DNA from: Klebsiella pneumoniae
Lineage (GTDB): Bacteria; Myxococcota_A; UBA796; GCA-2862545
Direction: 5' to 3'
Length of the DNA: 64,000 bases
NCBI GenBank assembly: GCA_945861065.1
Contig: CAMASI010000009.1
Span: 1 to 64,000, forward strand
The position numbers were made by a program, and so were the translations under genes. This document shows, in pieces, positions 28,159 through 46,704 of this stretch. How positions within the stretch are numbered: the first letter of the stretch is position 1; each line of letters starts with the position of its first letter. The notes below the pieces were generated by a model. The model was given only the letters and a program-made list of their open reading frames with translations, did no database searches and was not told the origin of the DNA.

Positions 28159-29373
28159 TTAGGTCGGAGGGAACGGAGCGAACGTTCGTACCCGTTCGGT
28201 CCGGCCGCGGAGGGTGAGGGGTTCCAATGGCGTCCAGCCGAGGGCGCGGTCGCCGATGCAGGCTGTGGTCGCTTCGGTCACAAGTAACGGCACGCCGGTG
28301 GATTGCGTCATGGCCTCGACGCGGGACGCGACGTTCACGTTGTCTCCCACGATGGTGTATTCGCGACGGTGTTTCGACCCAATGTGCCCGAGCACGACGA
28401 CGCCCGTATGGACGCCGATTCCGACTCTCACGGGCGACTCGCGCCGGGCCACGCGGCCCTCGTTGTGCTTTCGAAGGTCCTCAAGCATGGCAAACGCACA
28501 ATCTACCGCACGAACCGGGTGGTCAGGTTGGTCTAAGGGTGCGCCGAAGTAGGCGAGCAGCCCATCTCCCATGAATTTGTCTAGGGTTCCGCCGTGCGCG
28601 AAGATGACCTCGACCATGCGCCCGTGATGGTCATCGAGGAATCGAATCACTTCTTCTGGGCCCAACTGCTCGGCCATGGCGGTGAACCCGCGGATGTCGC
28701 AGAACAGGATGGTGACCTGACGGCTTTCCGCCTCTTCCAGCCCCGTGTCCACAAGCCGACGAGCGACCTCGGGCGAAAAGTAGCGCTGCATCCGGTCTAC
28801 GGTCACGCGGTCTTTGCCTACGCGCTCGGAAAGCGCAATCATCCGCCGAATCGCGTGCGTGGCGCCGATAGCAAACACCACAAGCACGATGGCCGACCCG
28901 CCGTAGACGCCCAGGTCTGCGTCCACGGTCAGGTCGACGGACCAGACCATGAGAACCGCCATCCCGCACCAGGCCCACAACACCCGCTCATCCCAAGTCA
29001 GCATCGCCATGAGGCCGATGAGCAAACAGATGGCGACGGCGTTGTAGGCCATTGCTACCGGGGACGAGGCGAGCGGAATGCTCGCGCCGAGTATGATTCT
29101 GACCATCCAAATGTCGAAGAACGCGGGACCCAGCGCTGACGCGAGGTCTCCGGGCAACCAGCGTGTCGCGGCACTGAGGCAAAACGCTACGCCCAAATAG
29201 GCGACGAGCAGGGGCCACTGAACGACGAAAAAGTCGTCATGGACCGGACCGAATGCCAAGATCAGCGCGAGGCCTAACCACGCTCCGATCCCGATGACCC
29301 TCAGGTGATTGAGACGCCGCGCGCCGCTGGCGCGTTCTTCGGCCACAAACCTGTCCAACTCGGAAGGGCGCAC
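28159..29373 (-). CDS. Membrane-bound class III adenylate/guanylate cyclase
   Basis: This 404-residue protein has about six transmembrane helices (residues 25-180), a short linker helix ([15 protein letters not shown]) and a cyclase catalytic domain. The two metal Asp are in [11 protein letters not shown] and [13 protein letters not shown]. The purine-selecting and transition-state residues lie in [19 protein letters not shown], where the Asp argues for ATP and the Asn/Arg pair is intact, so it should make cAMP. The linker is the signal-coupling helix seen in many bacterial membrane cyclases. GTG 29373 diverges from the ABC gene 65 bp away. Confidence 0.9.
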
Positions 29374-29438: not shown

Positions 29439-30941
29439 GTGTCGGAACCGCTCCTTCGAATCGACGGGCTGAACGTGCGCTGGGCGTCGGGTGCAGTTGT
29501 GCTCAGCGACGTCAAGTTGCACGTTAAAGCGGGAAAGGTGACCGCGCTGCTCGGGTCCTCCGGCGCGGGTAAGAGCACACTCGTCCGGGCGGTGCTTGGC
29601 TTGATTCCGGCAAGCGCTTCCGTGACGGGCAGTTTCGAGTGGAAGGGCAAGCCGATTCGCGACCCGGCGACGCTTCGCGGACGCGAGATCGGGCTGGTCT
29701 ACGCTGAACCGCTGGACGCGCTTCTTCCGCGGCAGACAGTGCAAGACCACGTCGCTGAAGTGGTCTCGTTTCATCGCGGTTTGCCTTGGCCAGAGGCCGT
29801 TGCTCAGGCCAAAACGCGGCTGGCCGACGTTGGCTTTCCGGCTGAGTTGGCCGAGCGGCTGCCTCACCAGCTGTCCGGCGGGCAGCGGCAGCGCGTGTTG
29901 TTGGCGGGTGCCCTCGCCGCGGATCCGCAGTTGCTCTTGGCCGACGAGCCTACGGCGTCGCTGGATCCGGCGAGCGCGAGGGCCGTCCTGGCGCATCTCC
30001 GTGATCGAACCGTTGCAAACAACGCTGCCGTGTTGTGGATTTGCCACGACTCGTTGCTTGTCAAGCAATTTGCCGACCGATTTGCCGTCCTTCATGACGG
30101 TCGAATCGTAGAGGAGGACGCTGTCGAGCGGTTTGCGGGCCCCGAATCCCCGCGGTCGTTCGTAGGGTGGAAGGCGGGGGCAGACCTGGGCGTCGCCCGT
30201 CCGAAAGCCGCGGGCGCCCCATTGTTGACCGTCAGCCATCTCACAGTGGACCACCCAGCGCCTAAAGGGTCGACAATTGCGGTGAAGCCGGTGCGCGCGG
30301 TTCACGACGTGTCTTTCGCGCTTCCCGAGGGGGGAACCCTTGGCGTGACGGGGGCGAGTGGCAGCGGCAAGAGCACGCTGTGTCGCGCATTGTTGAGGCT
30401 CATTTCGCCCACCCACGGACAGATGCGGCTTGGCGACCTCGATTGGGGCACGATTTCCGGTGAAACGCTGCGTAAGGCCCGCCGTCGCGTGCAACTGGTC
30501 CAGCAGGACCCGGGCAGCGCGCTGACGCCGTTTCGCACCGTCGGAAGTGTGCTTGTTGAGGCGATGGCGGCTCACGGCCTGTTCAGCCCGCCCGACAGGA
30601 CAAAACGTGCGCTGACGTTGCTGCAGGAAGTCGGGCTCGACGCCGACACGGCAGCGCGTTTGCCCAACACCTTGTCGGCCGGGCAGAAGCAACGGGTTTC
30701 GCTCGCTCGTGCGCTTGCGGTTGATCCGGATCTGCTGGTGCTCGACGAATGGACAAGCGCACTCGACGCCGAGGTCGCCGCGATTCTGATCCATCATCTG
30801 CGCGATCTCGGTGCCGCCCGGGGCCTTGCGCTCATCGTCGTCTCGCACGATCCGGCTGTCATTCGCGCAACATGTGATCGTGTGATCGTCCTGGACGCGG
30901 GGCGCGTAGTAGGGGAGCGGCAGTTGGAGTGTCCCACTTGA
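29439..30941 (+). CDS. Tandem-ATPase ABC protein (oligopeptide-transporter type)
   Basis: This 500-residue cytoplasmic protein has two complete nucleotide-binding domains. The first has Walker A GSSGAGKST (about 34-42), signature LSGGQRQR and Walker B LLLADEPTASLD. The second has GASGSGKST (about 304-312), signature LSAGQKQR and LLVLDEWTSALD. Arrangement and motifs match fused DppD-DppF/YejF-like importer ATPases. No permease or binding-protein gene is beside it, so it must pair with proteins encoded elsewhere or have another role. The 3' end overlaps the cyclase gene by 13 bp, indicating one transcript. Confidence 0.85.
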   Translation: MSEPLLRIDGLNVRWASGAVVLSDVKLHVKAGKVTALLGSSGAGKSTLVRAVLGLIPASASVTGSFEWKGKPIRDPATLRGREIGLVYAEPLDALLPRQTVQDHVAEVVSFHRGLPWPEAVAQAKTRLADVGFPAELAERLPHQLSGGQRQRVLLAGALAADPQLLLADEPTASLDPASARAVLAHLRDRTVANNAAVLWICHDSLLVKQFADRFAVLHDGRIVEEDAVERFAGPESPRSFVGWKAGADLGVARPKAAGAPLLTVSHLTVDHPAPKGSTIAVKPVRAVHDVSFALPEGGTLGVTGASGSGKSTLCRALLRLISPTHGQMRLGDLDWGTISGETLRKARRRVQLVQQDPGSALTPFRTVGSVLVEAMAAHGLFSPPDRTKRALTLLQEVGLDADTAARLPNTLSAGQKQRVSLARALAVDPDLLVLDEWTSALDAEVAAILIHHLRDLGAARGLALIVVSHDPAVIRATCDRVIVLDAGRVVGERQLECPT

Positions 30942-32710
30942 GCGGCATCGCTGTGCGTGGAAGGCCAGCCAATGCGTCAGCAGCATGGGCCCTTGTCGGT
31001 GACACCGACGGCATGAATCGAACCGCTGGCAACGGGATCGTGCACGACCTGCGTATGGAGCCGGATGGTGCGGGAGGGTTGCGCGTTGTGGGTGCCATGG
31101 AAGGTCCGCTCGGCACCCGAATGCCTTTTGAGGAGGATGAGAGTAGCTGGGTGTCAGGCCGCTTCTTTCGCCAGGGGCGGCGTTTTGAGGGGCCGATCGT
31201 TCGGCGCAGCCTGTACGAGGCCGTGCTTGAACCCACCTCGGACGGTGCTGTCCCGAGGCTTACCCTCGATTTGGAGCCGTCCAACGCGCTGGCCATTCCC
31301 GCCGTCGCCCTTAGGCTTCGTCAGATCGCGGCTCGGTGGCAACGTGCGGTGGACGACCTGCCGCCCCCTGGTGGCGCGCCTGTACCTTCGATCCGCAATT
31401 TGCCTCCGCTCGCCCGAGACTCCTGGGAACGGTGGAGTCGAATCGTCGCCGCCGAAGTCGCCGACGCAACTTGGCAACACCTTTGTACCGCCTCGATTCT
31501 CGACCTTCAGCGGATGCGTCCGTGGTCGCTCGCGGATCGGTGGGCGCTGCCTCGGACAGAGGTCCTGTCGGGTTTGCTTCGTGGTGTTGAAGCCGGGATG
31601 GTGGAGTTGTATTGGTCCGTCCGATGCGGACGTTGCCACGGCCAGGTGGCCGCTACCAAGGTGCTTTCCGACGTCGCTGACCATGCCGCGTGCCCATCCT
31701 GTCGAATCGGCTTCGAGGTCGACCTCGGCACCAATGTCGAGGTCATGTTCGCCCCGCACCCCGGTATCGTTCCTCGCGTGAATGAGACGTTTTGCACCTT
31801 GTTCCCGGTAGGGGCCCCTGAGATTCACGGTGCATTCGTGATGCCGCCGGGTGCGTCGATCGACGAGACTCTGGCGCTTGGCCCCGGACGCTGGCGGATT
31901 GGTTCAGGCGGCGAAGGGGCCGATGTGGACGTCACGGTTGCTCCTGGGGGCACGGACCAGGTGGAATGGACGCCCGAGGCCCGTGGCGCCGTCGTGCTGG
32001 CGCCTGGAAAACAGCGCCTTCAGGCCTCGAATCCGAGTGGCGCGCGTCACCGACTGCAGGTCATCCGCGAGGCGCCTGACACCGAAGACCGAGTGGTCGC
32101 CGCGACACTGACGACACTTCCGGAATTCCGGCGCCGGATGTCGCACCAGGTCTTGTCGCCAGACACCCGCGTTTCCAGCCGCCGCGTTGCGCTGATTTTC
32201 ACGGACCTTTCGGGTTCGACGGCGCTGTACGATGCGCTCGGAGACGCGCTCGCGTGGGCCATGGTTCGCGATCACTTCGCGCTGTTGCGAAGCGCCATAG
32301 AAGACCACGGCGGCCATGTGGTCAAGACGGCCGGCGACGCGGTGATGGCGGCCTTCGACAACGCGCTGCCTGCGCTCCAAGCTGGTGTGCGCATGCAGCG
32401 CGACTTTTCGGCTTGGGTCGGCACGAGAGGGTTGCCTGAACCTGTGGGCCTCAAGGTTGGGGTGCATGTGGGACCCGCGCTCGTTGTCCATAGCGACGCT
32501 TGGGGGCTGGATTGGTTCGGGCAGACCGTGAATATTGCGGCTCGCGTCCAGGGTACCGCTGTAGGCGGTGAGGTCGTTTGGAGCGACGAAGTTCGGGAGG
32601 CGCCTGGCGTATCAGCGTGGCTAGAGGCCAACGACATCAGGCCTGGCTCGACCACTGCCAGCCTCAAGGGCGTCGCGGAGGCAAGACTTTTGTGGCGGTG
32701 GGCGCCCTAG
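30929..32710 (+). CDS. Class III adenylate cyclase with DUF5939-like sensor region
   Basis: This 593-residue soluble protein has its cyclase domain at about residues 410-590: LIFTDLSGSTALYDALGD with the first metal Asp, HGGHVVKTAGDAVMAAF with the second, and WFGQTVNIAARVQ with the Asn/Arg pair. Ahead lie an AraC-like helical stretch, a four-Cys zinc-ribbon-like motif (CGRCHGQ...CPSCRIGFEVD, about residues 232-262), and beta-rich segments matching the DUF5939 type of cyclase partner region. It lacks membrane helices. GTG 30929 has GGAG just upstream and lies inside the ABC gene. The pair suggests that ATP-driven transport or its signal feeds cAMP output. Confidence 0.82.
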   Translation: MSHLSGIAVRGRPANASAAWALVGDTDGMNRTAGNGIVHDLRMEPDGAGGLRVVGAMEGPLGTRMPFEEDESSWVSGRFFRQGRRFEGPIVRRSLYEAVLEPTSDGAVPRLTLDLEPSNALAIPAVALRLRQIAARWQRAVDDLPPPGGAPVPSIRNLPPLARDSWERWSRIVAAEVADATWQHLCTASILDLQRMRPWSLADRWALPRTEVLSGLLRGVEAGMVELYWSVRCGRCHGQVAATKVLSDVADHAACPSCRIGFEVDLGTNVEVMFAPHPGIVPRVNETFCTLFPVGAPEIHGAFVMPPGASIDETLALGPGRWRIGSGGEGADVDVTVAPGGTDQVEWTPEARGAVVLAPGKQRLQASNPSGARHRLQVIREAPDTEDRVVAATLTTLPEFRRRMSHQVLSPDTRVSSRRVALIFTDLSGSTALYDALGDALAWAMVRDHFALLRSAIEDHGGHVVKTAGDAVMAAFDNALPALQAGVRMQRDFSAWVGTRGLPEPVGLKVGVHVGPALVVHSDAWGLDWFGQTVNIAARVQGTAVGGEVVWSDEVREAPGVSAWLEANDIRPGSTTASLKGVAEARLLWRWAP

Positions 32711-32769
32711 ACGCGTTTCTAGTTGCCTTGTCGTCGGCAAGGCACGATATTCGGCGGGCGGAGGAGAGC

Positions 32770-34051
32770 GTGTCATCCATCCTGTTGGGGCTGACGTTGG
32801 GGGCCTGTGGACCCAAGGATGGGTCTGCAGACACCACGGACTTGCCGGGCGCTACGCATGTCGCGACGGACGCGTTGTGGGATCCTCAAGCGGTTCCCGT
32901 GTTTCACTTGGAATTTGCCGATCCGAATTGGCGTGACACGCTGTGGGGCCTTGTCGTCGAAGATGACTGCCTGGACCGCGTTTATTTGCAGATGAGTTTG
33001 GTATTCGACAACCCCCTGACCGGAGAGTCGGAACAATGGGATGACGTTGGAAATCCGGTATCGCGGGCATAGCGCGCTAGATGGCCTTGAGGCGGATACC
33101 CGTGTGGGATTCAAGATGTCATTTAACGAATTCGTTTCCGGTCGCCGATTTCAGGACATGAAAAAGCTGAATCTAATGGGTACCGAAGGGGACGCATCTC
33201 TCCTGCGGGAGACTGTCGCCTACAGTCTTCTCGCAAAGATGGGTGTCGCGGCGCCATTTGTGAACTATGCCGAGGTCTACGCCGACGGTGAGTTTCTCGG
33301 CGTTTTCCCGTTGACGGAAGAGCCCGACGACGAACCGTTTCTTGAAAAACATTTCAGCGACGACACCGGCCACTTGTACCGGGTAGGTGGATACTGCGGC
33401 GGCAAAGGCACCTTTGAATATAAGGACGAGGACCCGCTGTCGTACTCAGAAACGTACGAACCGCGGGCAGATACGCTCCCGGAGCACCTTCTCGAGGATC
33501 TGGTACCGCTCACAAAATGTGTCGCCGAGATCGAGGATGCGGCCTTTGAGGCGTGCGTGGATACATGGGTCGATGTCGACTCGTTCTTTACGCTGGCGGC
33601 CGCCGACATCCTGTTTCCGGACGTCGATGGCATGATGGGGAACGGGCAGAATTTCATGATGTACCGGGATCCGGCGATAGACAAATTTGTATTCTATGCG
33701 TGGGACAAGGACCAGGCGCTTTCTACCTACAACCTCGTCGAGGACTGGTCGATCTACCGGGTCTATCCTCCTTGGGGTGAGAGTTTTTATTCGTTGCTCG
33801 GTAGTCGACTTATTGAGCTTCGGCGCCAGACTTACTGCGACAAGCTCCTTGAAGTCGCCGATTATTATGACCCGGATGTGCTCTTGCCCGAGATTGACGC
33901 CTTGGCGAAGTTCCTGGGGCCACGTGTCGAAGCGGACCCCTTCTTGGATGCAGACGACTGGTCCTATGGTGTGGAAGACGTAGTGGAAATCGTCGCCGAC
34001 CGCCACGAATCGGTGGTCGCGCTCGCCACGGTTTGCGCGCCAGCTCCTTAA
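32770..34051 (+). pseudogene. CotH-type protein kinase lipoprotein, frameshifted
   Basis: Two open frames together make one CotH-family (Fam20-like atypical kinase) protein. The first, from GTG 32770 (GGAGGAGAG just upstream), gives a lipoprotein leader SSILLGLTLGAC, an Asp/Thr tether and a beta domain ending EQWDDVG. It then runs into a stop at 33070-33072. The second frame resumes with IRYRGHSALDG at about 33052. Removing one A from the AAA at 33051-33053 restores WDDVGIRYRGHSA, the usual CotH block. Later motifs are intact: FNEF.SGRRFQDMKKLNL, LRETVAYSLLAKMG, NFMMYRDP and FVFYAWDKDQA. It lies between the cyclase and the glycosyltransferase genes. Whether the shift is real or an error is open. 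Confidence 0.8.
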
Positions 34052-34109: not shown

Positions 34110-36776
34110 ATGGGGATTCTAGTCAAGAGCGAGGCATCAGGACTGACCGCCGCCAAGATGGTTGGCGCAGCAGTCACTGTTGCCGCGTTCTTGGCCTGGG
34201 TGTTCGTGGACCTGACACCGCCCGTGCAGCTCGGCGCCGGCTTGGTACTTGCCGCGGCGGGCATCTGCTCTTTGCAGATGCGTCCTCGGCGCCGCGTCGT
34301 GCTCGCGGTTCTGTCCGTGGCTGTGTCGACCCGGTACATCGTCTGGCGCGCCACGGAGAGCCTTGGGGGTGAAAGCACCGTTGACGCGCTTGCTGCGGGT
34401 CTTCTGTTTGCGGCGGAGCTGTTTGCCTTTGCGAGTTTGCTGGGGGGGTTATTTCAGACGGCGGCCTTCAAGCGAAGACGCCCGATTCCGCTGACGGACA
34501 AGGACCCTGCCAGTCTGCCGACCGTGGACGTGTACATCCCCACCTACAACGAATCCGTGGACGTGGTTCGAGCGACCGCCATTGGCGCAATGGCGATTGA
34601 TTACGCGCGCAAATCGGTATGGATTCTCGACGACGGCAGGCGCGAGTCGATGCGCATTCTCGCGCAGGAACTCGGCTGTGGGTACCTCATTCGTCCGGAC
34701 AACAAGGGGGCGAAGGCCGGGAATCTAAACGCCGCGCTCACGCACACGAGTGGCGAACTGATCGCCATTTTCGATGCTGATCACGTGCCGACCCGCGGCT
34801 TTCTGCAGGCGACGGTGGGCTTCTTCCTGCAGGATCCGAAACTCGCATTGGTGCAGACGCCGCATCATTTCGTGAACGCCGATCCCTTCGAGCGAAACCT
34901 GCACCTGGACGGACGTGTTCCGCCGGAACAACACTTCTTTTATCACACAATCCAGGTCGGAAACGATTTCTGGAACTCGGCTTTCTTTTGTGGCTCCTGC
35001 GCGCTGCTCTCGAGAAAGGCCTTGCTAGAGGTGGGCGGCGTTCCAACGGATACCGTCACCGAAGACGCAGCGTGCTCGTTGCAAATGCACGCCCGTGGAT
35101 GGAACTCGGCCTACCTGGACGTGCCGCTCGCCGCTGGCTTGGCCACCGAAAGCTTCGGGGCGCATGTCATCCAGCGCATGCGCTGGGCTCGGGGAATGGC
35201 CCAGATTTTCCGGCTTCACAATCCGCTATTTCACCCTGGACTTACCTGGCCACAGCGGATCAACTACGCGTGCGCCAGCTGGCACTTCTTCGGCGGCGCC
35301 ATGCGCGTCGTCTTTCTGGTCGCGGCACCCGCCTATTTGATTTTCGACGTTCACCCCGTGTCTGCGGACGTTTGGGAACTCGCCTGCTACGCGGTTCCGC
35401 ACCTCATCCTGATTTGGACCGGCGGTGCAGACGCGCATCGAAACACACGCCATAGTTTCTGGTCGGAGGTGTATGAAATTGCGGTCGCGCCCTACACGGC
35501 CGCCGTGGTCGTCGTGGCGCTGGTAGCGCCCAAGCGGGGCGTGTTCCGCGTCACGGCCAAAGGTGAGGTCAATGACGCACTCACCTATGACCTGTCGATG
35601 GCGTTTCCGGTGCTCGGTTTGTTGGCGATGACCGTGCTCTCTCTTGGGATGATGCCCTCGAAGATGGCGAACAACCCTGGGGAGATTGCGACGATCGCGA
35701 TGGCGTCGTTGTGGTGCGTGTACAACCTGTTCATGCTCGTCGCGGCTGCGACGGTGGCGCTAGAGAGGCCGCAGCGGCGCACGGCACACCGCATCAAACG
35801 GTCCATCCCGCTCACGTTTTCCACGGATGAAGGAACGAGCCGGGGTCGTTCCATAGATTTGAGCCTGACCGGGGGCGCCCTTGAGCTCATCGGCACGCCC
35901 GCTCCAGGACCGATTCGTGTGCATCTCGTCGGAATGCCTGCCAGTCTGGTGCTCCAAGGGGAAATCATTCATTCGCGCGCTACGCCGATGGGTGTCATCG
36001 CCGGCGTACGATGGACGGGTCTGGACACGGAGGCGCACCGTGCATTGGTCTCGGCGATCTACGCGGACACCGACGGTTGGATGGAGGATCGATTTGCGCA
36101 CGATCGGCCCTTTGCGTCCATGCTTTCCGTCGTCGCCGCGCCAATTCGTGCCTTGTTGCGGGGCCCGGCCTGGGGCGCAACGTCGTCGGCGCGCACCGAA
36201 GGCCTCGTTCCTGAGACGCGAAAAGCCGCTTGTTTTGGTTGCGGGGCCATCGCGGGCCACGTGCTAGGCCGCTGCGAACGATGTGGCGAGGTCGTGCCAT
36301 TTCTGACGGCCGAACCCGCGGAGATGCGCTGGGTACGGCCTCCTGAGGGGCGGAAGCGCTTCGTCTACCCGGCCGTACTGACAGGCGCTGGGCTACTCGC
36401 GACGGTGTTGCTGTCTCCGTTGCTCGAACGGGATGGCCATGTTCGCGTGGACTACGTCACGAGAACCGTCCAGCTGCGAGAGGCTGAGGTGGAGATCGCC
36501 GGCTTGGCCGACGAGCTGCGGGCGCGCGCGCAACTCAGCGGCGCGAGTCCGAGTGACTGGACCCTTCGCCTCGCGTCCCTTCGTACGCGTCATGGACTGG
36601 ATGGGGCCCGTGCCCGATGGGCCGATGTGGCAAATGCGGAGCTCCTGCTGCGAAGCGCGACGCTTTCCTTGGACTCGGCCGCCGTAGAACTCGGTGATTC
36701 CGTGCGGCTCGAGGCCCGACTCGGCGGAATTTCGACTACACTGCGCCAAGCGCGCACCAGCCTGGAGGGTGCGTGA
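34110..36776 (+). CDS. Cellulose-synthase-like glycosyltransferase 2 with PilZ and zinc ribbon
   Basis: This 888-residue inner-membrane protein should polymerise and export a beta-linked glycan. Membrane helices 1-4 precede the GT2 core: VYIPTYNESVDVV, VWILDDGRRE, NNAALTHTSG-like KGAKAGNLNAAL, IFDADHVP at about residue 220, TVTEDAACSL at about 317 and the QxxRW motif QRMRW at about 355. More helices follow, then a PilZ domain (about 555-660) with RTAHR and DLSLTGG, the c-di-GMP-binding signature. Unusual is the tail: a four-Cys zinc ribbon (CFGCG...CERCG, about 707-724), a further membrane helix (about 751-772) and a long periplasmic helical, coiled-coil-like end. No bcsB, bcsC or bcsZ lies beside it. 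ATG 34110 follows GAGGGA. Confidence 0.86.
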   Translation: MGILVKSEASGLTAAKMVGAAVTVAAFLAWVFVDLTPPVQLGAGLVLAAAGICSLQMRPRRRVVLAVLSVAVSTRYIVWRATESLGGESTVDALAAGLLFAAELFAFASLLGGLFQTAAFKRRRPIPLTDKDPASLPTVDVYIPTYNESVDVVRATAIGAMAIDYARKSVWILDDGRRESMRILAQELGCGYLIRPDNKGAKAGNLNAALTHTSGELIAIFDADHVPTRGFLQATVGFFLQDPKLALVQTPHHFVNADPFERNLHLDGRVPPEQHFFYHTIQVGNDFWNSAFFCGSCALLSRKALLEVGGVPTDTVTEDAACSLQMHARGWNSAYLDVPLAAGLATESFGAHVIQRMRWARGMAQIFRLHNPLFHPGLTWPQRINYACASWHFFGGAMRVVFLVAAPAYLIFDVHPVSADVWELACYAVPHLILIWTGGADAHRNTRHSFWSEVYEIAVAPYTAAVVVVALVAPKRGVFRVTAKGEVNDALTYDLSMAFPVLGLLAMTVLSLGMMPSKMANNPGEIATIAMASLWCVYNLFMLVAAATVALERPQRRTAHRIKRSIPLTFSTDEGTSRGRSIDLSLTGGALELIGTPAPGPIRVHLVGMPASLVLQGEIIHSRATPMGVIAGVRWTGLDTEAHRALVSAIYADTDGWMEDRFAHDRPFASMLSVVAAPIRALLRGPAWGATSSARTEGLVPETRKAACFGCGAIAGHVLGRCERCGEVVPFLTAEPAEMRWVRPPEGRKRFVYPAVLTGAGLLATVLLSPLLERDGHVRVDYVTRTVQLREAEVEIAGLADELRARAQLSGASPSDWTLRLASLRTRHGLDGARARWADVANAELLLRSATLSLDSAAVELGDSVRLEARLGGISTTLRQARTSLEGA

Positions 36777-37654
36777 GGCCCCATTTTTACCCCCACATGA
36801 CTGTTTACGCCCTATTCTGCTCGTTTTCCGCGATCGCCTCACCGGCGGGCGCAGCGTCGAATCCCGCTGTGTCGGGTCCCGTCGCTGCGGCCGATAGCCC
36901 TGTCCCCGAAACGGGCGTGACCTCGCTCGGGTTCGGAACGGAGTTGCACGCAAAGAACGACCTGCTCTTGCAAGGTGTTCACGCGATTGCGGCCCAGGGC
37001 GCCGGCATGAACATGATGATCAACCAGATGCCCCAAGAGGTTTTCGACTGCGAATTCCGCGGCAACAACGCCTCCGACCGCGGCGCAGGCCTCATGCTGA
37101 AGAAGAATCCTTTCACGGTTACGATTCGCCACACTTGGATGGAAGGGAATATTGCGAAATATGGCGCGGGGATTTACGCACACTCGCCCGTTGTGATGGA
37201 AAATAGCGTGGTCATCGACAATACGGCAACGACGGGCGGTGGCGGCATTTACGCGCGCGAGTTCGGCGGGACCCTTTCGAATCTCGTCCTGGACGGGAAC
37301 TCATCGCCGTCGGGTGCCGGGCTCAAGTTCGACGCGTGGGCGGGAACGGCGCGGAATCTGTCGATCACGAGCAACCTCGACGGGAAAGGCGTGCACGCAG
37401 TGGGCGTCCTGCCCGTGTCGTTCAAGTACAACGACGTGTGGAACAACCTCGGTGGCAATTACAATACCACGATGGGCGACCGCACCGGAATCGACGGCAA
37501 TATCAAAGTCGATCCGTTGTACGTCTCGTTGACCGACTTCCATTTGTTGGGCGGGAGTCCGCTGATCAATGCGGGTGACCCAACCTTGCTCGACGCGAAT
37601 GGCACAGTGTCGGATATTGGTGCGTACGGCGGGCCGCAGGGGTCAGGCTGGTGA
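36773..37654 (+). CDS. Secreted right-handed beta-helix protein
   Basis: This 293-residue exported protein has a signal peptide (about residues 1-28, ending SPAGAA). Repeated short strands of the type FRGNNASDRGAGLML, MEGNIAKYGAGIYAH and VIDNTATTGGGGIYA follow, as in polymorphic-outer-membrane-protein or pectate-lyase-like beta-helices. The end, HLLGGSPLINAGDP...SDIGAYGGP, is the common choice-of-anchor ending of such helices. It overlaps the glycosyltransferase gene by GTGA, so it may modify, cleave or bind the exported glycan. No catalytic residues could be assigned. Confidence 0.78.
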   Translation: MRPHFYPHMTVYALFCSFSAIASPAGAASNPAVSGPVAAADSPVPETGVTSLGFGTELHAKNDLLLQGVHAIAAQGAGMNMMINQMPQEVFDCEFRGNNASDRGAGLMLKKNPFTVTIRHTWMEGNIAKYGAGIYAHSPVVMENSVVIDNTATTGGGGIYAREFGGTLSNLVLDGNSSPSGAGLKFDAWAGTARNLSITSNLDGKGVHAVGVLPVSFKYNDVWNNLGGNYNTTMGDRTGIDGNIKVDPLYVSLTDFHLLGGSPLINAGDPTLLDANGTVSDIGAYGGPQGSGW

Positions 37655-37998
37655 AAAGCGATCTGTTCGCGCTTCACGCGGTAGTCGACATGGGCGCCGC
37701 CTTCTGAAAACGTGATTTTCTCGACGAGGCGGTCCAGCGCTTCTCGGCGTTCGTCGAGGGGGCGGTTGCTCCACGCCTCCAACACCGCAGCGCGGAACTT
37801 CGCCGGGTCCATCCGTTCGGGGGTCGGTACCGCCTTGCGCTCCGAGAGGTTGGCGAGGCGCAATGTGAGGAACTCCCGGCGAGTGATAAGCGGGGCGTCG
37901 ATCGCCTTGGCGTCCTCGGCAATGAGGATGTCATCGGCAACCTGGAGGCCGACGCGAACGCCTTCGCCTGCCCACACTGCGAAACTCGGATGGTCCAC
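37650..37998 (-). pseudogene. Possible serine-recombinase C-terminal remnant
   Basis: A minus-strand open stretch encodes a segment ending RPLDERREALDRLVEKI and HVDYRVK, preceded by LITRREFLTLRLANLSERKA. This pattern resembles the coiled end of large serine recombinases. Start, catalytic Ser domain and zinc ribbon are missing, and the reading frame fuses into the antisense of the beta-helix gene. I judge it a decayed fragment. Confidence is low because no search was possible. Confidence 0.35.
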
Positions 37999-38106
37999 GC
38001 CGTCGTGCAGGGTGTGTGTGCGACGTCCCGAGTCCTCGCGAGCCTAGCCAGACCGTCGCGCCAACCACGTCTCGTAAGGGCAAGAGGACCACCTCCTGCG
38101 CCCTGA
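37960..38106 (+). pseudogene. Possible IS91-type transposase C-terminal remnant
   Basis: On the plus strand a frame ending at TGA 38104-38106 reads FACPHCETRMVHAVVQGVC, then ATSRVLASLARP and a tail ARGPPPAP. IS91/IS801-like transposases end in a CPxCGGRM zinc knuckle, an xxIxxILxxLGLP helix and a Pro-rich tail, so this looks like the last 48 residues of one. It overlaps the recombinase-like scrap on the other strand, and no upstream catalytic part is present. Confidence 0.35.
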
Positions 38107-38213
38107 CGCCGCCCTTGGGGCCCTACACCGCGTGGCAACGCCGGGTGCGCCCTGCGCGTTCGTGCGCCCGCACGCACGCACAGATGCGACACAGCGCCGC
38201 TGTCAGCATGGCA

Positions 38214-38310
38214 AGCAAGCCTGGGGAAAAGGGCTTACCGATCACCGGCGTGCCGTTGCTAGCAAGCCTCGGGGAAAAGGGTGGACCGGTCACCGGCATG
38301 CCGGTGAACG
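38214..38310. repeat. Two tandem imperfect repeats of about 47 bp
   Basis: Copy 1 (38214-38260) starts AGCAAGCCTGGGGAAAAGGG and copy 2 (38261 on) starts AGCAAGCCTCGGGGAAAAGG. Both continue with ACCGATCACCGGCGTGCCG or ACCGGTCACCGGCATGCCG. They differ by one base insertion and a few substitutions. Confidence 0.75.
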
Positions 38311-38326
38311 AGGTCGCCCGGTGACC
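38290..38326. repeat. Competing perfect palindromes
   Basis: TCACCGGCATGCCGGTGA at 38290-38307 is an 18-base perfect palindrome. GGTCACCGG (38288-38296) can instead pair with CCGGTGACC (38318-38326). The two folds exclude each other, as in switch-like or attenuator structures, but no adjacent gene start makes regulation evident. Confidence 0.65.
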
Positions 38327-38386
38327 ATCGTCGCGAGCGAAGTCGATTCGCCCGCCGGACGAGAAGCGGGGTGCAACGTGAGGAAA

Positions 38387-38405
38387 GCCGTACCCATGGT
38401 ACGGC
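38387..38405. repeat. Perfect 8-bp hairpin
   Basis: GCCGTACC at 38387-38394 pairs with GGTACGGC at 38398-38405 around a CAT loop. It lies inside the segment bounded by the inverted repeats, followed by a GGGG/CCCC-rich hairpin-prone stretch. Confidence 0.65.
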
Positions 38406-38485
38406 GACCGATCGTGGGGTCCCCGCGACGAAGTCCCGCGGGATGAAGCGACAAGCGCAGCAGATGGGCATTTCCCCGAGGCTTG

Positions 38486-39120
38486 CTAGGCCAGCAATCG
38501 GTCCACAAGATGGTCGCGAAACGCGAGGAGGTCGCTCGAATCGTAGCCATCGGCCTTGGCGAGCGCGCCCACATTCAGCGTTCGAAGCACCCAGGCCAAG
38601 TCGGGTGGCGAAAAGCCCCCATCCTTTCTGCTGACCAGGCCGAGCGCGGCCACGAGGTCCTCGCCCGCGTCGACGAGTACCTTCACGTCGACCAGAACGC
38701 GGATCTCCCAACGAGAGTAGAGCGCACAGAGCTTGTTCACCAGGAGTTCTGCGCGGCAGTCCACCAGAATTTCGGTCGTGCCGAGCACGTGGCGTTCCGG
38801 GGGGAACACGTTCGGTACCGACTCGGCCACGAGGTCCACCAGGACCACGTCGCCATCCAACTCCACCCGGATTCGGCAAAAGGCAGGCGCCAGCTGAAGG
38901 AAATCGACGGACATTCCCAGTGCCCGCACGCCGCGATGGCGCCCTCGGGGAGGCGCCCGAGCGCATCGAGTCCGTGAAAGAAGAGGTCTAGTTCTTTTGT
39001 GCGTCTATGCGCAAAGTGGAAACCGGCGAGCGCGCTCCCGCCCGTGAGGGTCCAACGGGGCACCAGGCCGGCGAGCGCTATCAGCACGCGCGACTGCGGT
39101 TCCGACAGGCTACCCGGCAC
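38486..39120 (-). pseudogene. AbiEii-type nucleotidyltransferase toxin gene, frameshifted
   Basis: Read right to left, GTG 39120 gives LSEPQSRVLIALAG, WTLTGGSALAGFHFAHRRTKELDLFF and LPEGAIAA; the TGGxALxxFH...RxTxDLDLF core is the nucleotidyltransferase motif of AbiEii/AbiGii toxins. At about 38929 the frame shifts. The new frame continues RALGMSVDFLQLAPAF, VVLVDLVAE, EILVDCRAELLVNKLCALYSR, RKDGGFSPPDLAWVLR and ends FRDHLVDRLLA. Adding one base restores AALRALGMSVDF. Just upstream, another frame ends NRRAFWDWLLPELERRAG at TAG 39110-39112; it may be the tail of a partner gene or a further lost N-terminus. The gene diverges from the Phd/VapC pair. Confidence 0.68.
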
Positions 39121-39966: not shown

Positions 39967-42900
39967 ATGCTCGGCTTCTTGCTCCTGGCTACGACCCCAG
40001 CTGCCGCCCAGGACATCATGGTTTGCTACGCGGACCTTTACCAATGGGACGTGGAGGCGCACCTCTTGGCCTCCGGCATGTTCACCAAGGTGACCATGAC
40101 CGATTGCCGATTCACCACCCCCACCCTCGCCACGATGCTGACCTACGACGGCATCCTCGTGTATTCGAACTACGCGTTCTCGAACGCCACGACGCTCGGC
40201 GATCGGCTTGCGGACTACGTGGACGTGGGGGGCGGCGTGGTGCACGCTGCCTTTTCCAACGTTTTCGGCGGCACGCTTGAGGGTCGCTGGAACACCGGCA
40301 ACTACAAGGCCTTCTCGTACGGCAACAACACCTCCGGAACATTGCGCTCCATCGTCCCGATCGATGCGCTGCATCCCATCCTGGCGGGAATCTGGAAGCC
40401 GGTCGTTACCTTCAATGGCGGTTCCTCGACGTACCACGGCACGCCCTGCACCAAGACCGCGGGTGCCACGCTCGTAGCCAATTGGTCCGACGGGTCTGCG
40501 CTGGTGTCGGAACACGTGCCGAGCGGCGTCGGCGCGGTCGTCGGCCTCAACTTCTTTCCGGCGTCATCGGTAGCGCGCGGCGACTTCTGGACCGATTCGA
40601 CCGATGGCGAGGCCCTGCTCGTCAACAGCTTGCTGTGGGTCACCGACGTAGACAAGGACCTCGACGGGTTTTCGGTCGGCGGCGGTGGCGATTGCGACGA
40701 CTTGGACCCTACCATCAACCCGGACGCGGCCGAGGACTGCTCGGATACCCTGGACAACGACTGCGATGCCACGATCGACTGCGCAGACCTCGACTGTGTC
40801 GGCCTGTCCGCCTGCGACGAGGTCTGCGATGACGGTACCGACGAAGATTTCGATGGGCTGATCGATTGCGATGACCCCGACTGCATCACCGATTTCGCCT
40901 GCATCGAACATTGCGACGATGGGCTGGACGACGACTACGACGGCCTGATCGACTGCGCTGACCCGGATTGTATCGGCGACCCGAACTGCGTCGAAGTGTG
41001 CGGCGACGGGCTTGACAACGACTTTGACGGCCTGAAGGACTGCGCCGACGGAGATTGTTTCGGGGATCCCGCGTGCGTGGAAGACTGCGACAATGGCATC
41101 GACGACGACTTTGATGGCCACAAAGACTGCGCGGACGCCGATTGCGCTGGCGACCCCTTCTGCGCCGAGGTTTGCGACGACGGGTTCGACAACGACCTAG
41201 ATGGACAGACCGACTGCACCGATTCGGACTGCTGGGAAGAAGCCTTCTGTTGCGACGACGATCTGGACGGCTTCCTCGACAGTGAGGGTAGCTGTGGCGG
41301 CGCCGATTGTGACGACCACGCCTTTGATGTGGGCGACCTCGACGGCGACCTCGTGCCCAACACGTGCGACAACTGCTTGTCCACCGTCAACCTCGATCAG
41401 GCCGACAGCGATGGCGACGGCGCGGGCAATGTGTGCGACGCCTGCCCCGGCTTCGACGATGAGTTGGACCTCGAAGGGGACAACATTCCAGATGGATGCG
41501 ACAACTGCCCGGAGGTGACCAACCCGGCGCAAGCCGACGGCGATCTGGACGGTGCTGGCGACGTGTGCGACCTTTGCCCCGGTATCGATGACGGAATCGA
41601 CGACGATGGCGACGCAGCCCCCGATGGGTGCGACAACTGTTTCGACCTGTTCAATCCAGGCCAGGAGGACGACGACGGCGACGGCTTCGGCGACGATTGC
41701 GACACGTGTGCAGGTTTCCCAGACAGTGAGGATCTGGACGCCGACCTCGTCGCCGACGGCTGCGACACCTGCCCGCTCGACTTCGACCCGCTCCAAGAGG
41801 ACGAAGACGCCGACACGGTCGGTGACTTTTGCGACAACTGCCCGGGCGAAGACGACCGAATTGATGCCGATGGCGACTCGTTCCCCGACGCGTGCGACAA
41901 CTGCCCCTTCGCCAGCAACCCGCTGCAGAAGGACACCGATCTGGACGGCGTCGGCAACAACTGCGATGCCTGCCCTGGGTTTGACGATGCCGACGACGCG
42001 GATGTGGACTTGGTGCCCGACGGCTGCGATCTGTGCCCCTTGGTCGCCGATCCGGACCAGTTTGACACCGATCTGGACGGCGCGGGCGACGCTTGCGACG
42101 TGTGCGAGGGCGGAGACGACTTTATCGACGGCGATGTCGATACGGTTCCCGATGCCTGCGACAACTGCGAAGACGACGTCAACGAGGACCAGTCCGACGC
42201 AGACGGCGACGGTTTCGGCGACGTGTGCGACAGCTGCGCGGAGGGCGACGACACGGTCGATTCCGACGACGACGACATCGCCGACGCCTGCGACAACTGC
42301 CCCGTCAACCGCAACCCCAGCCAGAAGGACGACGACGTAGACACTGTCGGCAATGCCTGCGATGTGTGTGAAGGCGGCGACGACTTGCTGGACGTCGATA
42401 CCGATCTGGTGCCCGATGCCTGCGACCTGTGCCCGGACGTGGCCGACGACCAGACCGACACCGACTTCGACGCAGTCGGCGACGCCTGCGATCTGTGCCC
42501 CGGCGAGGACGATGGCGACGACGTCGACGGAGACTTAGCGCCGGACGCTTGCGATGTGTGCCCGGACCACTTCGACCCCGACCAACTCGATGCCGACTTC
42601 GACACCATTGGCGACGTGTGCGACAGTTGTGAAGGTCAGGACGACACGCTGGACGCCGATGCCGATGATGTGCCTGACGGCTGCGACGGGTGTGACGATG
42701 TGCCCGATCCGGACCAGGCCGATCTGGACGTGGACGCCGTGGGCGACGCCTGCGACAACTGCCCGCTCGACGTCAATCTGGACCAGGCCGACGCCGACGG
42801 CGACGTGGTGGGCGACGTGTGCGATCTCTGCGATGGCGGCGATGACCGGCTCGATGTGGACGCGGACCTTGTCCCCGATGCTTGCGACAACTGCCCGTTG

Positions 42901-45900
42901 GACCCCAACGAAGACCAGGCGGACGGCGACGGGGACGGCGCTGGCGACACCTGCGACACGTGCCCGGATGGGGACGATTCGGCAGATGCCGACCTCGATC
43001 TGGTCGCAGATGCTTGCGACAACTGCCCGATCGACGTCAATGCGGACCAGCAGGACGACGATGGGGACGGCGTCGGCGACCCCTGCGACGTGTGCGGTGG
43101 ATTCGATGACTTCGACGATGTGGACGTCGATGGAACGCCGGAAGGCTGCGACAACTGCCCCGGTGTGACCAACGACCAAGCGGACGCCGACAGCGATTTC
43201 GTGGGCGATGTTTGCGACCAGTGCGCGGACTTCGACGACCTCGACGACTTCGACGTGGACGCGGTTCCTGACGGCTGCGACAACTGCATCGACGTGGCGA
43301 ACGACCAAGCCGACCTCGACCTCGACACGGTCGGCGACGCCTGCGACCAATGCCCCGGGTCCGATGATCTGGCCGACGTCGACGTGGACTCTGCGCCGGA
43401 CGATTGCGACCTGTGCCCAGACGTGCCCGACGACCAATCCGACGCCGATTCCGACTTCGTGGGCGACGCTTGCGACTTGTGCGACGGCTTCGACGATGCG
43501 GCGGACGACGACCTCGACACCGTCGCCGATGGGTGCGACAACTGCCTTGGTGTCTTCAACGACCAGTCTGACGCCGACTTCGACGGCGCGGGCGATGCTT
43601 GCGACGTGTGTCCCGACGGTGACGACTTCCTCGACACCGATGGCGACGGCGTTCCGAACGCCTGCGACGCCTGTGACGGTGACCTGAGCGATGACGACGG
43701 CGATACCGTGGCCAACGCCTGCGACGCCTGTCCCGGCTTCGACGACTTCGACGACGCCGATGGCGACACGGTGGCCGAGGGCTGCGACGCCTGCCCGGGG
43801 CTGGCAGACGACCAGGCCGACGACGATGGCGACAGTGTGGGCGACGTGTGCGAAGCCTGTCCCGGCTCCGACGATCTCGATGATGTGGACGCCGATGGGG
43901 TGGCCGAGGGCTGCGACAACTGCCCGGGTTTGGACAACGATCAGGCCGACACCGACGTCGACGGCGTGGGCGACGCCTGCGACGACTGTATCGGAACGCT
44001 CGACGATGCCGATAGCGATGGCGCTGCCGATGCGTGCGACAACTGCGTGAGCGTGGCCAACGACACCCAGGCTGACGAGGACGGGGACGGAGCGGGCGAC
44101 GCCTGCGATTCCTGTCCCACACTGTTCGACGACGGCGCAGACCTCGATGGAGACAGCACCGCCGACAATTGCGACGTGTGCCCGACGTTGGGATGTGCCT
44201 CCGCCTGTGGCGACGTCGATAGCGACGGGGATGTGGACATCGCCGACCAGGCGCTGCTGTCCACCAAGATCCTGACCGGCATTGTGGTGCCGTCGTATTG
44301 CCAAGCCTTGGCGGGCGACGTCAACGGCGATGGGTCGCTGTCGGCCTCCGATGTTGTCGTGTTGACCGACGCGATATTGGCGGGTGGGCCACTGTCCTGC
44401 CGCGAGCAGCAGGCCGACACCGATGCCGACACGTTTGGCGACGAATGCGATCTGTGTGCGGGTGGGGACGACCGGTTGGACGCGGATGCAGATGGGTCGC
44501 CGGACGATTGTGACCTGTGCCCGTCGGGTGTGGACACCGAAGACGTAGACGGGGACATGGTTCCCGACGCCTGCGATGTGTGCGACGGCTTCGATGACTT
44601 CGACGATGTGGACGCCGATGGTTCACCCGATGGCTGCGACGATTGTGACGGGCCGCTCGCCGACGGCGACGTGGATGGCGTGGCGGACGCCTGCGACACG
44701 TGCCCAGGGCTCTTCGACCCGGGTCAAGCGGATCGGGACGGCGACGGTGCCGGTGACCCCTGCGACGGCTGCCCGGACGCCGGTTGCGCCGAGTTGTGCG
44801 GGGACGCCGACCTCGATGGCGACGTGGATGTTGCCGATGCCTCGATGCTGTCGATCAAGCTGCTGACGGGCGTGGTCGTGCCCACGGCGTGTCAGAGCAA
44901 GGCAGCGGACGTGGACGGCGACGGTGCATTGTCGGTCGCGGATGTGGACGTGCTCGCCGACTTCCTGGTTGTGGGCACGCCGCTCGCGTGTCGCGACAGC
45001 CAGTCCGACCTTGATGCCGACAGCGTGGCCGACGACTGCGACGTCTGTGTGGGTGGCGATGATCGGGTCGAAGGGGATGGCGATGGCGTGCCCAACGATT
45101 GCGACGCGTGCGATGGCGGCGACGACCGGCTCGACGACGACGCCGACGGGTTCCCGGACGATTGCGACAGCTGTCCGGGCTTCGACGACGCGGTGGACGA
45201 CGACGGCGACGGCGTGGCCGACGGTTGTGACGATTGTGGCCCGCTCAGCCCCGACACGGACTTCGACGGGGTCGCAGATGCCTGCGATGTGTGCGTAGGT
45301 GGCGATGACCTCGTCGAAACCGACGGTGACGGCGTGCCTGACGATTGCGACCTATGCCCTGACGAAGACGACACGGTGGATGCAGATACCGACAGCGTTC
45401 CCGACGGGTGCGACCTGTGCGACGGCTTCGACGATCTCGAAGACGCCGACCTCGACACGAACCCGGACGCTTGCGACCCGTGTCCGGCTGAACCCGACGA
45501 AGCGGACGACGATTCCGACGGCGCGTGGACCTGCATTGATTGCGACGATGGCGATTCCGCGCTCAACCCCGACGACGTGGACAGCGACGGGTATTCGACC
45601 TGCGACGGCGACTGCGCAGACGGCCTGTCGGCCATCCATCCCGGTGCGGCGGAGGTGCCCAACGGCATCGACGACAACTGCAACGGGCTGACCGACGAAG
45701 GCGGGGACGCGGACGGCGACGGGTACACCGTGGCGGGCGGCGATTGCAACGACCTGGACCCGGCGGTTCATCCCGGTGCCGAGGAGGTGTGCAACGGCGC
45801 GGACGACGACTGCGATCTGGTCATCGACGAGGGCACGGAGTGTGTCGACGACGACGGCGATGGGTACTGCGAAGGCCCGTTGTGCACCGACGACACGCTT

Positions 45901-46704
45901 CCGGGCGACTGCGGCGACAACGATCTGTCGATCTACCCAGGCGCGTTCGAGGACCTGTCCAACGGCGTGGACGACGATTGTGACGGAGAGGTGGACAACG
46001 GCACCCCGGATGCGGACGGCGATGGTTGGGGCGACGAGGTGGACTGCGACCCGCTGGACCCGACGGTGTACCCTGGGGCGCCCGAACTGCTCGATGGCCT
46101 CGATAACGACTGTGACGGGCTCATCGACGAAGGCACCGACGTGGTGGACGATGATGAAGACGGGTTCACGGAAGAGGCCGGCGACTGCGACGATGGCGAT
46201 GAAACCGTCAATCCGGCTGCGCCGGATTTGCCCAACGGTCGAGATGACGATTGTGACGGCCTGATCGACGAAGACACGACGTTGTCGGACGATGACGGCG
46301 ACGGGCTCAGCGAAAACGACGGGGATTGTGACGACGGAAATGCCGACGCACACCCCGGAGGTGTCGAGGTGCTTGACGGTGCGGACAACGACTGCGACGG
46401 CCTGATCGACGAGGACTTGGACGACCTGGACTTGGACGGTTGGACCGTGTTGGGCGGGGATTGTGACGACAATGACGGCTGGGTCAACCCCGGACGTGCC
46501 GAACTGTGCCTGGACGGGGTCGACAACAACTGCGATGGCGCGGTGGACGAGACTTGCGCCGACACGGCCGAAGCCCTGGACTCCAAATCGACGGGCACCT
46601 GCGGCTGCGGCGATTCCAGCGGCGATTCCGGCGGCGACACGGGCGCCGCCTGGTTGTGGGTAGGCCTACCCTTGCTGTGGCGGCAACGGCGGCGCCCCGC
46701 GTAG
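39967..46704 (+). CDS. Giant Asp-rich calcium-binding repeat surface protein
   Basis: This 2245-residue exported protein has a signal peptide ([15 protein letters not shown]) and a flavodoxin/ThuA-like N-terminal domain (about 20-225: [27 protein letters not shown]). One MopE-like unit and about six CxDGxDNDxDGxxDCxDxDC units follow (to about 425). Several dozen thrombospondin-type-3-like repeats fill about 430-1840 (CDNCP...DQxDxDxDxxGDxCDxC). Two dockerin-like modules interrupt them at about 1414-1478 and 1611-1676. MopE-type repeats (about 1845-2205) and a C-terminal anchor [33 protein letters not shown] close it. It should bind many calcium ions at the cell surface. No enzyme motif was seen. 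Confidence 0.87.
41360..45480 (+). repeat. Coding tandem array of thrombospondin-type-3-like repeats
   Basis: Short units of roughly 60-130 bp with GAC/GAT-rich codons and TGCGAC signatures repeat through most of the giant gene. Long antisense open frames over this stretch are a by-product of the biased codons. Such arrays can expand or contract and are easy to misassemble. Confidence 0.75.

Follow-up and report, generated by a model that had tools for sequence, protein, structure and literature searches.

A BcsA cellulose synthase with a lineage-specific tail, in what is probably the remnant of a bcs operon in a Myxococcota_A genome

Organization of the locus

The window, i.e. the whole stretch of 64,000 nucleotides analysed here (positions 1 to 64,000 of contig CAMASI010000009.1, assembly GCA_945861065.1), contains a gene for a tailed BcsA preceded by a CotH-family gene and followed by an ORF of composite appearance and by repeated DNA. 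The features are given below with window coordinates, strand and the evidence for each.

32770-33051, plus strand: 5' part of cotH, with a lipoprotein-like N terminus (48% identity to the CotH of the same-genus genome G001), in the ORF 32578-33072
33041-34051, plus strand: rest of cotH, CotH kinase family (PF08757, E 8e-36, 124 bits; orthologue search)
34110-36776, plus strand: bcsA, UDP-forming cellulose synthase catalytic subunit with a C-terminal tail (TIGR03030, PDB 7lby, motifs, structure match)
35772-36062, plus strand: PilZ domain with the c-di-GMP motifs RRTAHR and DLSLTG (PF07238, E 6e-9; motif scan)
36231-36284, plus strand: zinc-ribbon motif CxxC-x10-CxxC, CFGCGAIAGHVLGRCERC (motif scan)
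36351-36431, plus strand: extra membrane helix within the tail (helix 54-80 as predicted by the model of the tail; hydropathy peak)
36453-36770, plus strand: predicted periplasmic four-helix bundle of the tail, ~105 residues (AlphaFold model, mean pLDDT 83)
36773-36991, plus strand: bcsB remnant of ~73 codons from the 5' end, beginning with the ancestral 4 bp shared with bcsA (bcsB match, N-terminal profile)
36992-37654, plus strand: partial beta-helix protein, continuing the reading frame of the bcsB stump (PF13229; larger paralogues in the genome)
37950-38170, minus strand: repeat with a relationship to the C terminus of ISCR/IS91-like transposases (95% copy on another contig of the same genome, G000:C81)
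38259-38490, no strand assigned: multi-copy MITE-like element with the terminal inverted repeat CTAGCAAGCCTCGGGGAAA (genome copies; inverted ends)

Further upstream, the window contains two class III adenylate/guanylate cyclase genes, at 28159-29373 (minus strand) and 30929-32710, one of which has a DUF5939 domain.

The window encodes an apparently ordinary BcsA with an additional C-terminal tail

The product of the ORF at 34110-36776 is 888 residues long and contains GT2 and PilZ domains as assessed by Pfam. Its initial annotation as a cellulose-synthase-like GT2 with a c-di-GMP-binding PilZ domain is borne out by Pfam, by TIGR03030 and by a PDB match. Indeed, residues 17-681 align with Escherichia coli BcsA (PDB 7lby) with an E value of 2e-146, and the top matches of the predicted structure are the BcsA proteins of E. 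coli and Rhodobacter sphaeroides. Scanning for motifs identified LDDG, FDADH, FFCGS, TVTED and QRMRW, together with the gating loop FRVTAKG. The GT2 catalytic motifs, the FxVTxKG gating loop and QxxRW are kept across 10 aligned relatives, and the C-terminal PilZ domain displays both RxxxR and DxSxxG. Against the NCBIfam model TIGR03030, the window BcsA scores 685 bits, i.e. 14 bits below the curated cut-off of 699; its homologue in G001 scores 695, and a close homologue from G049 clears the cut-off with 754. Judged by its sequence, the ORF encodes an ordinary BcsA cellulose synthase, with its catalytic, gating and c-di-GMP motifs intact.

A candidate second synthase in the window genome, a PilZ protein on another contig (G000:C30), was rejected, as it is a PilZ-methyltransferase protein and not a BcsA. 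This protein (L033:8182-10920) has 912 residues, with PilZ at its N terminus and a methyltransferase domain at its C terminus, and its gene is followed by one for a histidine kinase.

The window BcsA extends beyond the part shared with its characterized homologues. An extra CxxC...CxxC ribbon, also reported in the initial annotation, is indeed present at 36231-36284, and the further membrane helix and periplasmic helical tail described there hold as predictions of an AlphaFold model and of hydropathy. Searches with Pfam, NCBIfam and PDB profiles yielded no known family for the tail, the matches being at most weak ones to zinc ribbons and helical proteins. No description of a BcsA with a ribbon and a periplasmic bundle was found in the open papers searched.

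The tail is conserved in the order to which the window genome belongs

We surveyed 58 near relatives and 379 genomes of the phylum, using BcsA and a profile of the tail as queries. Strong BcsA matches were found in 25 genomes of the window's order, and all 25 have the tail in or beside BcsA; its absence from all homologues had been named beforehand as a refutation of the initial proposal, and on this point the proposal stands. In some families (e.g. in G001, G042, G037, G023 and G048) the tail is fused to BcsA, and in family f2 (e.g. in G035, G038, G041, G052 and G053) it is mostly a separate ORF of ~200 residues located between bcsA and bcsB. Outside this order but within the class, one BcsA locus (L112) has a similar separate ORF, with a tail match of 47 bits. 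No tail-like ORF was found at four BcsA loci elsewhere in the phylum (L113-L116) or at two loci from Acidobacteria records (L070 and L071), an absence that is not firm farther afield, since only eight candidates per genome were scored when the phylum was searched with the tail profile, and L112 escaped that search.

Of 25 aligned tails, 23 show the ribbon pattern; it is also missing from the fused tail of an additional BcsA in G303 (L111). Because the pattern is missing in two aligned tails and in L111, the constant part of the tail is the membrane helix together with the helical domain, and the ribbon may be dispensable. Taken together, these findings show that the tail is real, more than a product of chance, and lineage-specific.

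Bcs partners are missing from the window genome assembly and present in relatives

The initial annotation stated that BcsB, BcsC and BcsZ are lacking. This is correct both beside bcsA and in the whole assembly, a draft of 147 contigs with an estimated completeness of 91%, but relatives do have these partners. In the window genome assembly, there was no match to the BcsB family (PF03170), no match to BcsC better than E 0.06, and no BcsZ or GH8 protein. When the same-genus BcsB was used as the query against this genome, it matched one short piece, 36875-36991, and nothing else. What is left falls short of a Bcs secretion system (bcsABZC operon), with bcsB reduced to a stump and bcsZ and bcsC missing. 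Among the 19 loci examined in relatives, which were annotated with a simple ORF caller and tblastn rather than a trained gene finder, bcsB lies beside bcsA in every case, bcsC is likewise present in all 19 and bcsZ in 17, the gene order being bcsA-(tail)-bcsB-bcsZ-bcsC. A complete bcs operon is carried by G001, the same-genus genome (public record SXOB01000019.1). Bcs types with the markers BcsD, BcsE, BcsG and BcsK are as defined previously (PMC11470070).

The gene following bcsA, at 36773-37654, had been read as an independent beta-helix gene overlapping bcsA by GTGA. The overlap stands, but the independence does not, since residues ~1-73 correspond to the start of bcsB. The 4-bp overlap with the bcsA stop is that of bcsB in G001, G037 and G048. 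In addition, a BcsB N-terminal profile made from 19 relatives scores 22 bits against the first 80 residues, as compared to 5.1 bits for the best of 2000 shuffles, and the match ends at residue 73. The beta-helix part resembles other, larger proteins in the window genome, and the ORF ends just past the motif DIGAYGG, which three paralogues extend well beyond, one of them into a C-terminal anchor. The ORF at 36773-37654 thus has the make-up of a chimera, in which the start of bcsB is joined to a fragment of an unrelated exported beta-helix protein. The predicted conservation of a beta-helix partner in this neighbourhood fails, because relatives have bcsB at that position.

Beyond the chimera, the copy of the repeat 37950-38170 on G000:C81 overlaps an ORF whose product resembles an ISCR transposase (E 1e-15), and the MITE-like element at 38259-38490 occurs in many full or partial copies in the window genome, several of them at contig ends. 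This sequence is what rearrangement near mobile elements leaves. A reading by eye of the minus strand at 37655-37945 as the C terminus of a serine recombinase was not supported by Pfam, NCBIfam or plasmid searches. In the segment 38486-39917, the minus strand contains remnants resembling AbiEii, and there is also a Phd/PIN toxin-antitoxin pair that looks intact. Farther along, 39967-46704 encodes a protein of 2245 residues with thrombospondin type 3 repeats and dockerin-like segments.

A CotH-family gene is linked to bcs in the window's order

As initially annotated, a CotH-family gene lies just upstream of bcsA, but a frame shift of one base near 33051 breaks it in two. When aligned with the intact copy of G001, the window cotH jumps from frame +1 to frame +2, which is due to either a mutation or a sequence error. 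The CotH Pfam domain is present in this frameshifted gene. CotH-family genes are strongly expanded in these genomes, with 12 to 32 copies each in the 13 genomes counted (G000, G001, G026, G035, G038, G041, G043, G049, G051-G053, G316 and G324), so adjacency of bcsA and a CotH gene would in itself mean little. Nevertheless, a search of 11 other genomes found one clear orthologue of the window CotH in 9 of them (251-422 bits, with the next best paralogues at ≤91 bits). In six of these nine relatives (G001, G324, G052, G049, G041 and G038) it lies inside the bcs locus, so this neighbour is conserved beyond the window genome. In G026, G043, G035 and G053 a different CotH gene comes after bcsC. These gene orders indicate that the CotH-bcs link is genuine in the window's order. 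We found no description of a bcs-linked CotH gene in the open papers searched.

At seven loci of relatives (L035, L037, L039, L040, L042, L043 and L044) a related gene is found upstream of bcsA and divergent from it; the one that was scanned (L040:6778-8319, minus strand) encodes a Ser/Thr protein kinase with a PEGA domain.

Discussion

We consider it likely that a standard bcsA-B-Z-C operon for cellulose synthesis and secretion, in a form specific to the window's order and its near kin, once occupied this locus, and that what is seen now is its rearranged remnant. As suggested by its conserved motifs and the known mechanism of BcsA, the enzyme would polymerise glucose from UDP-glucose under PilZ/c-di-GMP control and thread the chain through the inner membrane. 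To this the lineage adds a subunit or domain whose predicted parts are a zinc ribbon in the cytosol, a ninth membrane helix and a four-helix bundle in the periplasm. It is always placed between BcsA and bcsB, whether as a fusion to BcsA or as a gene of its own, and a CotH-family kinase gene is a frequent member of the locus. In canonical systems, BcsC exports the cellulose chain and BcsZ trims it. In the assembly of the window genome, bcsB past its first ~73 codons, bcsZ and bcsC are gone, and the stump is joined in frame to a beta-helix fragment near mobile-element repeats. BcsA and BcsB together form the catalytic core (Omadjela 2013, cited in PMC11470070). Because this core needs BcsB, the window BcsA is probably an orphan unable to make or export cellulose.

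The loss of partners could instead be an artefact of assembly, given a draft of 147 contigs with incomplete coverage of the genome. The organism would then have an intact bcsABZC operon, and the beta-helix and repeat region, unrelated to it, would have been attached to the start of bcsB by the assembler. Such a misassembly would fit with the fragmentation of the draft, the recurrence of both repeats (37950-38170 and 38259-38490) at other contig ends, and the complete operon in a genome of the same genus. On the other hand, repeated DNA was looked for at the junction near 36992 and none was found, which speaks against a repeat-driven event; the remainder of bcsB, bcsZ and bcsC is on no other contig, and cotH is independently frameshifted. 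We thus regard misassembly as rather unlikely, albeit a serious contender, and biological decay as the better-favoured cause of the loss. Far less probable, indeed very improbable, is the initial proposal of an undescribed glycan secretion and modification system made up of the tailed GT2-PilZ protein, the beta-helix protein and CotH without Bcs partners. Although the three ORFs are neighbours, with an overlap between two of them, and the CotH linkage is kept in relatives, these relatives have bcsB there, mostly followed by bcsZ, and bcsC as well, and the beta-helix ORF holds the start of bcsB and stops where its paralogues continue. The neighbourhood survey speaks against such a system; the partners were lost, or mis-assembled away, in this one genome.

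As to the tail, an interaction with BcsA is suggested by its occurrence either as a fusion or as a separate gene. Since the gene order is the same in both arrangements, and since the tail has parts on each side of the membrane, it may be a Bcs subunit or adaptor. The most likely of its possible roles, put forward tentatively, is that of a membrane adaptor through which BcsA would be connected with the BcsB/BcsC path in the periplasm. A more speculative version, to which we give slightly less credence, is that the tail protein is an undescribed and needed Bcs subunit of the whole order, which would couple the cytosolic PilZ side of BcsA to the periplasmic BcsB/BcsC channel, while a CotH kinase dedicated to the system would act either on the machinery itself or on what it makes. 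The periplasmic bundle might also be a ligand sensor like the four-helix domains of chemoreceptors and NarQ, tuning BcsA to an external signal, which we deem improbable. It does resemble the sensor domains of PcaY, Tar and NarQ with Z scores of ~9-10 (up to 10.4), but such scores are within chance for helical bundles, and a Foldseek search for a known fold of the tail gave no match with E ≤0.001. A TarH match was obtained for one of 17 tails (E 8e-4). Moreover, sensor bundles usually lie between two membrane helices, whereas that of the tail follows a single one.

Returning to the reading of a degraded or rearranged bcs operon, it removes a false lead, since the synthase "without partners" belongs to an operon that was either broken or mis-assembled. 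What merits further attention is the conserved tail, a candidate Bcs subunit, and the bcs-linked CotH gene is likewise of note.

Comparison with known systems

The window BcsA is like the BcsA of E. coli and R. sphaeroides (TIGR03030; PDB 7lby, 9b8v and 4p00) in its GT2 core, membrane helices, gating loop and PilZ domain with its motifs, and shares the same fold over ~690 residues. It differs from both by the addition of the C-terminal ribbon, ninth membrane helix and periplasmic bundle, and from E. coli BcsA also by the lack of an N-terminal domain. In Zymomonas, a part is likewise fused to BcsA, but there it is BcsB and the fusion explains the apparent loss of a partner (PMC7112194), whereas the fused tail of the window BcsA does not match BcsB, which relatives have in addition to the tail. 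One of the loci from elsewhere in the phylum, L116 (G332:C425), has its BcsA within a 1820-residue open frame, which may be a fusion of BcsA and BcsB as in Zymomonas.

The relatives share the gene order of the bcsABZC operon, from which the lineage departs by an extra tail gene or domain between bcsA and bcsB and by the linked cotH, and the window genome further by its bcsB stump and its missing bcsZ and bcsC. For CotH too there are parallels, as CotH-family genes are linked to exopolysaccharide synthase genes both in Gram-positive bacteria, where they adjoin pel operons (PMC7112168), and in a zetaproteobacterial stalk-forming cluster (PMC8250860). The pel loci also have polyphosphate polymerase and DUF4956 genes (PMC7112168), whereas in the lineage of the window the link is to bcs.
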